From the NCBI GenBank assembly GCA_030041435.1, contig JASHNW010000089.1:62001-126000 (forward strand): DNA of 64,000 bases, written 5' to 3'. Both the position numbers and the translations under genes were made by a program. The notes beneath the pieces were generated by a model. It did no database searches, was not told the origin of the DNA, and was given only the letters and a program-made list of their open reading frames with translations. Source of the DNA: Acidobacteriaceae bacterium. GTDB lineage: Bacteria; Acidobacteriota; Terriglobia; Terriglobales; Acidobacteriaceae. Shown here piece after piece: positions 1 through 3,541 of this stretch (position 1 is the first letter of the stretch; the number at the start of each line of letters is the position of its first letter).

Positions 1-133
1 TGACCTGGCCCCGATTGCCACCGAGCAATTCCAGGAAGGATTTCTTTTCGCTTATCAGGCCGTTGTCGACTATCGTCTGCATCACGCCTCCAACGCGAAC
101 AGCGCGGCAAGCGACTACGGCCCATCCGATTAG
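1..133 (+). CDS. 3' end of an unidentified gene
   Basis: An open frame enters from the left edge and stops at TAG 131-133, giving 43 residues that begin DLAPIATEQFQEGF and end SDYGPSD. Codon choice is G/C-rich at third positions, like real genes around it. I do not recognise the family from this short C-terminus. Its stop codon is offset by one base from a TTA (130-132) that would be the stop of oxyR on the other strand if the internal amber of oxyR were read through, so the two genes look like tightly convergent neighbours. Confidence 0.5.
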   Translation, partial: DLAPIATEQFQEGFLFAYQAVVDYRLHHASNANSAASDYGPSD

Positions 134-246
134 TCGCGTGCCTGCCTCGTCCGCGCCGCTCTAGGCTGGGAGACGGACGGGTGGGAGCCATTTCGCCTGG
201 TCAGCTGCTCCAGGAACGCCTGCTGCACACGGCTGAAGGAGCGCCC

Positions 247-1059
247 CTACAGCCTTGCCGCCGCAATGGTGCGGAATGCCTGCGCATCCGACACGCGCAC
301 ATAGCGGCAACCCACGCCGCGATCGATGGCCATTTCCGGCACCAGGGTCACGCCTACTCCGGCCGCCACCATTCCCAGCAGGCTGCTGAACTGGCCGCTT
401 TCGAACGCCACACGCGGGTCCAGCCGCGCCCGCTCGCAGGCGGCCAGCGCGATCCCGCGAAAGCAGTGGCTGTCGCGCAGCAGCACGAATTGTTCGTCGC
501 GCAATTCGCGCAGGGAAATGCTCGCCGCACTGGCCCGCGGATGATCCGCCGGCAACGCCGCATAGAGCCGCTCCGTGAGCAGCGGCATGATTTCGAAATC
601 GCGATGTTTCAGCGGCAGGGAAAGAATGGCCACGTCGACGGCAAGGCTGCGCAGGCTTTCCACCAGCACCGGCGTTGTCTCCTCGACGATGCGCAGTGTG
701 GCTTCCGGAAAACGCCGCGTGAAAGCCGCGATTCGTTTCGGCATGTAATAGGGGGCAATGGTCGGGATTACGCCGACAGCCACCGTTCCACGCGGATCGT
801 GGCGGCTGCCGTCCACTTCGCTGCGCGCCAGCTCCGTCTGGTGCAGCACGGTGCGCGCGTGGGGCAGAAAGGTGCGTCCGGCCTCAGTGAGGCGAATGCT
901 GCGGCCCAGGCGGTCGAAGAGGCGCGTTCCGAGTTCGTCTTCGAGCTTCGAAATCTGCTGCGAGAGCGACGGCTGCGCCACGTGGCAGTGTTCCGCGGCG
1001 CGGCTGAAGCTGCCCGTGTCCGCGATTGCGCAGAGATAACGCAGTTGATGCAGTTCCAT
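247..1059 (-). CDS. oxyR: LysR-family hydrogen-peroxide sensor OxyR, C-terminally truncated by an in-frame amber codon
   Basis: A LysR-type regulator: winged HTH at residues 1-60 (starts MELHQLRYLCAIADTGSFSR), then a substrate/redox domain. Cys199 and Cys208 (segment DSHCFRGIALAAC) occupy exactly the positions of the redox pair of E. coli OxyR, so this is a peroxide sensor rather than a generic LysR protein. It is divergent from katG with an OxyR-type site between them, as in classic OxyR circuits. The protein is 270 residues, short for OxyR (about 305). The reading frame continues past TAG 247-249 for 38 more codons (GRSFSRVQQAFLEQLTRR and on) to TAA at 130-132, giving 309 codons and restoring the usual final helix. 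It is therefore either truncated, a recent nonsense mutant, or a sequencing error. Confidence 0.9.
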   Translation of the reverse strand: MELHQLRYLCAIADTGSFSRAAEHCHVAQPSLSQQISKLEDELGTRLFDRLGRSIRLTEAGRTFLPHARTVLHQTELARSEVDGSRHDPRGTVAVGVIPTIAPYYMPKRIAAFTRRFPEATLRIVEETTPVLVESLRSLAVDVAILSLPLKHRDFEIMPLLTERLYAALPADHPRASAASISLRELRDEQFVLLRDSHCFRGIALAACERARLDPRVAFESGQFSSLLGMVAAGVGVTLVPEMAIDRGVGCRYVRVSDAQAFRTIAAARL

Positions 1060-1094
1060 AGGTAATGCCTATGCCCCGAATGCGATCTATGTAT
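1058..1094. promoter_or_regulatory. OxyR-type operator between oxyR and katG
   Basis: ATAG (1058-1061), CTAT (1069-1072), ATGC (1080-1083) and GTAT (1091-1094) are each separated by exactly 7 bases. This matches the E. coli ATAG-N7-CTAT-N7-ATAG-N7-CTAT consensus at 13 of 16 positions. The first tetrad overlaps the oxyR start codon (1057-1059), which suggests autorepression of oxyR and activation of katG from one site. The spacing is seen directly; the regulatory role is inferred. Confidence 0.75.

Positions 1095-1180: not shown

Positions 1181-3541
<2,361 letters not shown>

Follow-up and report, generated by a model that had tools for sequence, protein, structure and literature searches.

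A putative recent nonsense codon ahead of the last helix in the OxyR of a soil-type acidobacterium

Results

The window analysed here, a 64,000-nucleotide stretch of a contig from the genome (G000) of a soil-type acidobacterium, carries oxyR on its minus strand as an open frame of 270 residues in the standard code (247..1059, ATG at 1059). The frame ends at an in-frame TAG, codon 271 (247..249). Past this stop it stays open, and an untranslated remnant of codons 272-310 (130..246, minus strand) still contains the helix motif GRSFSRVQQAFL before the distal TAA at 130-132, which gives 309 codons in total. Direct inspection confirmed this arrangement as the preliminary description had given it, including the overlap of the distal stop with that of a convergent gene of 120 amino acids on the plus strand, whose 3' end (1..133) closes with TAG at 131-133. 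Divergent from oxyR runs an intact plus-strand gene (1184..3541; 785 amino acids from the first GTG) that we take, from family knowledge, to be the catalase-peroxidase gene katG. In a relative from the same genus (G006), the katG frame has 774 amino acids and its start is equivalent to about position 1217. An OxyR operator-like palindrome, ATAG-N7-CTAT (1058..1072, plus strand), overlaps the oxyR start codon, and it occupies the identical position at the oxyR start in 19 of 19 loci examined.

The truncated protein comprises a LysR-type HTH domain (residues 3-62; Pfam HTH_1, 1.8e-25) and a LysR_substrate domain that is cut short (residues 88-267; Pfam, 9.7e-45), so that the model of the latter is covered only up to position 185 of 209. 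The regulatory domain thus is incomplete, its C-terminal helix being lost after the TAG at codon 271. Against the NCBIfam OxyR model PRK11151 the protein scored 188 bits, under the cut-off of 329 bits, and was outscored by the GltC model with 216 bits, yet this too remained under its own cut-off of 350. Since both models stay below cut-off, the name is based on the cysteines, the katG linkage, the operator-like site and the structure matches together. Cys199 and Cys208 are both retained at exactly the numbers first assigned to them, and H198, C199, R201 and C208 (HCxR context) are invariant in an alignment of 20 OxyR sequences. The combination of a divergent catalase gene and an ATAG-N7-CTAT site, as expected of OxyR, is present. 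Pseudomonas aeruginosa and Corynebacterium glutamicum OxyR (PDB 4X6G, 6G1D, 6G4R) were the top sequence and structure matches of the truncated protein and also the top structure matches of the intact relative; they retain the C-terminal helix, whereas the truncated acidobacterial OxyR is without it.

In the predicted structure of the 270-residue protein the last element is a strand (262-269), whereas that of the intact G006 protein continues from a strand at 262-270 to a helix at 277-288 (block pLDDT 82-88), followed by a tail of low confidence. According to these models, the truncated protein hence stops where its last strand ends, and what it lacks is exactly the final helix.

For comparison we surveyed 397 genomes of the order and took matches of at least 59% identity as close orthologues. 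This yielded 57 close OxyR orthologues, the window's own included. Close loci with titles belonged to Acidobacteria, e.g. Granulicella, Silvibacterium and Acidobacterium isolates and MAGs. All 57 matches reach query residue 280 or further, and an in-frame stop occurs in a single one, that of the window (0/56 in the others). Close relatives ending at residue 270, which had been named as a pattern speaking against a lesion, were thus not found. In the 30 orthologues read in detail, codon 271 encodes Arg in 24, Lys in four and His in one, with TAG only in the window. The CAG or TGG formerly suggested as the original codon does not match these relatives. Among the Lys and Arg codons seen at this position, TAG can be reached by one substitution from Lys AAG alone, and AAG occurs there in a genus relative.

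The region after the stop is well conserved. In the 30 orthologues most of the twelve residues that follow codon 271 are nearly invariant, with the motif GRSF(N/S)RVQxAFL, and the window still encodes this motif past its TAG. Within the post-stop peptide GRSFSRVQQAFLEQLTRR, 10-12 of 17 residues are identical to those of relatives, and when codons 272-288 were shuffled 20,000 times, the observed score was never reached. Intact OxyR lengths range from 288, which is both the shortest among the orthologues read and the commonest, to 318 residues; 309 codons therefore lie within the range but are not the usual OxyR length that had been assumed. The proposal that the distal stop is the ancestral end fared better: codon 310 is the probable ancestral end in this lineage, as the genus relative G006 (L039) stops there too and has a similar tail (RAAAARVRQPRD versus PRAARTRQARD).

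Compared with genus relatives, codons 1-270 gave dN values of about 0.09-0.13 and dS values of about 0.9-1.1, i.e., a dN/dS ratio of about 0.1. Judged from these substitution rates, this part of oxyR is under normal purifying selection, a signature that says no more than that any loss must be recent. At otherwise invariant sites the window OxyR has two changes, versus three to four in each of four relatives. An old loss would leave more changes. This leaves three possibilities: a recent stop, a short protein that still has a use, or an erroneous base.

A close OxyR match was found in six of the 12 genus genomes at the threshold used, some of these genomes being incomplete. With half of them lacking a close OxyR by this measure, the gene appears dispensable within the genus.

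Three further loci have irregular oxyR copies. A more distant orthologue of about 50% identity (L016), from the draft genome G020, is itself interrupted in frame by a TAG, at codon 178. Two copies from acidobacterial MAGs (L055 and L057) both look broken, by artefact or by recurrent loss: one has a matched length that is not a multiple of three together with an early stop, the other is a shortened match.

Discussion

Our analyses point to a recent nonsense allele as the probable state of this oxyR, yielding a 270-residue protein that would probably still bind DNA but activate katG poorly. Three options had been proposed at the outset, namely a recent nonsense mutation, suppression of UAG and a sequence error. 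The first of these is best supported, as the orthologues are intact, the tail is undecayed and codons 1-270 are constrained; suppression found no support, albeit with an incomplete tRNA inventory. We infer that the base at codon 271 is real, and that a single-base nonsense change there shortened OxyR to 270 residues in the recent past. Neither the DNA-binding domain nor the linker helix would be affected in such a protein, and both redox cysteines would be kept; the last helix (277-288 in the intact relative) would be missing.

What the loss of this helix may mean can be judged from Shewanella oneidensis OxyR (SoOxyR), where a truncation series likewise removed the last helix (alpha10) from an otherwise complete protein. 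The Shewanella truncations were made in the laboratory, whereas the acidobacterial stop is natural and lies a few residues earlier; numbering it via E. coli OxyR, we take it to correspond to about SoOxyR residue 277, slightly before the series. None of the SoOxyR truncations after residues 283, 286 and 289 rescued the plating defect or brought katB to full activation, although a response to H2O2 was still present (Sun et al. 2022, PMC8787470). Truncations from residue 290 on were functional, the shortest of these with 65% activating capacity (PMC8787470). By analogy, we infer that binding to the oxyR/katG operator is probably retained in the truncated acidobacterial OxyR, which would however be poor in assembly and activation, and that katG induction by peroxide would be weak or lost. 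It may keep partial function nonetheless, as the SoOxyR truncations kept some H2O2 response.

Searches of the literature for nonsense alleles that shorten the OxyR C-terminus in nature, and for OxyR in Acidobacteria, returned nothing to the point: the one paper on OxyR and stop codons concerned missense changes in OxyR, and for acidobacterial OxyR no direct functional data came up. Natural oxyR pseudogenes are known, e.g. in Mycobacterium tuberculosis. That case is likewise a natural inactivating change beside an intact peroxide-defence gene; the mycobacterial gene has several lesions, in contrast to the one substitution without decay seen here.

A doubtful explanation, but the one that we would consider next, is that the true oxyR is intact and that the assembly carries a sequencing or consensus error or the allele of a minority strain. 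In its favor, the gene otherwise looks fully functional, with its low dN/dS and undecayed sequence on both sides of the stop, next to a conserved operator-like site and an intact katG, and the assembly is a draft of 134 contigs with 2.17% contamination. However, the lesion is a substitution rather than an indel, the local sequence has no long homopolymer, and none of the other conserved genes compared on the 127-kb contig has a convincing internal stop. Since such substitution errors should be rare and the compared contig genes show no convincing others, we rank a real nonsense codon first, which is a judgement. Generally poor sequence was dismissed as a cause, as the apparent internal stops inspected in other parts of the contig seem to lie in shadow frames, either antisense or of low complexity.

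Alternatively, the 270-residue OxyR could be functional in an altered form, e.g. dimeric, repressor-biased or constitutive, and be maintained by selection. The intact and conserved DNA-binding domain, linker helix and cysteines would fit such a role, as would the residual H2O2 response of SoOxyR cut within its last helix (PMC8787470). Furthermore, a search for the FUR family (PF01475) gave no match in this genome versus a match in 13 of 14 control genomes; a PerR-type backup hence is not seen, and OxyR may be the main peroxide regulator. We consider a maintained short form unlikely all the same, because a similarly short OxyR occurs in no relative (the shortest intact one of 30 read has 288 residues) and few parts of the OxyR C-terminus are as well conserved as the helix segment.

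Readthrough of the UAG, whether due to a suppressor tRNA, to pyrrolysine or to leaky termination, would allow some full-length OxyR to be made, and the conserved, in-frame tail after the TAG would agree with this. The tRNA inventory (43 Rfam matches, 42 of them assigned by ARAGORN) is incomplete, with five expected species not found (Trp, Ile, Leu-UAA, Ala-UGC and Arg-CCU), and the report of allo-tRNAs from Acidobacteria (PMC7609411) also counts toward this reading. Yet none of the 42 assigned tRNAs in this incomplete inventory has a CUA anticodon, and a PylS model gave only sub-threshold matches, as in most control genomes. TAG terminates nine of 29 conserved contig genes (oxyR included), and in at least five of these the end lies no more than a few residues from that of the relatives. 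The stop at codon 271 is absent from all close relatives (0/56), where a conserved stop would have signalled readthrough. With no CUA tRNA among those assigned, no PylS above cut-off, TAG ending contig genes and relatives lacking the stop, readthrough is very unlikely. Low-level decoding of UAG by a tRNA that escaped detection, either a suppressor or an unusual one, would make full-length OxyR conditionally; this we regard as the least probable of all. A genome-wide alternative code was dismissed because conserved genes end in TAG where their relatives end, and pyrrolysine because the search for its tRNA synthetase gave nothing above cut-off.

The tRNA search also brought up some unusual genes. 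The genome has three tRNA-Cys(GCA) genes (C1:78591, C105:67656 and C124:87587), and the copies on C105 and C124 have an unusual body in common; next to the C124 copy lies a tRNA-like gene of 93 nt whose anticodon is CAT (L114 1861-1953). On C66 (33210-33266; L129) lies a partial tRNA-Pro(GGG)-like stretch, rejected by ARAGORN and possibly the remnant of an integration site. An intron-aware tRNA search around it found nothing, and the stretch reads as a tRNA-Pro-like remnant.

If real, the stop would be a natural loss of exactly the OxyR helix whose importance for activation emerged from the Shewanella laboratory truncations; failing that, the locus represents an ordinary recent nonsense allele or an assembly error. 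In the first case it could reveal how an acidobacterium copes with peroxide when its OxyR is crippled and its genome gave no FUR-family match.
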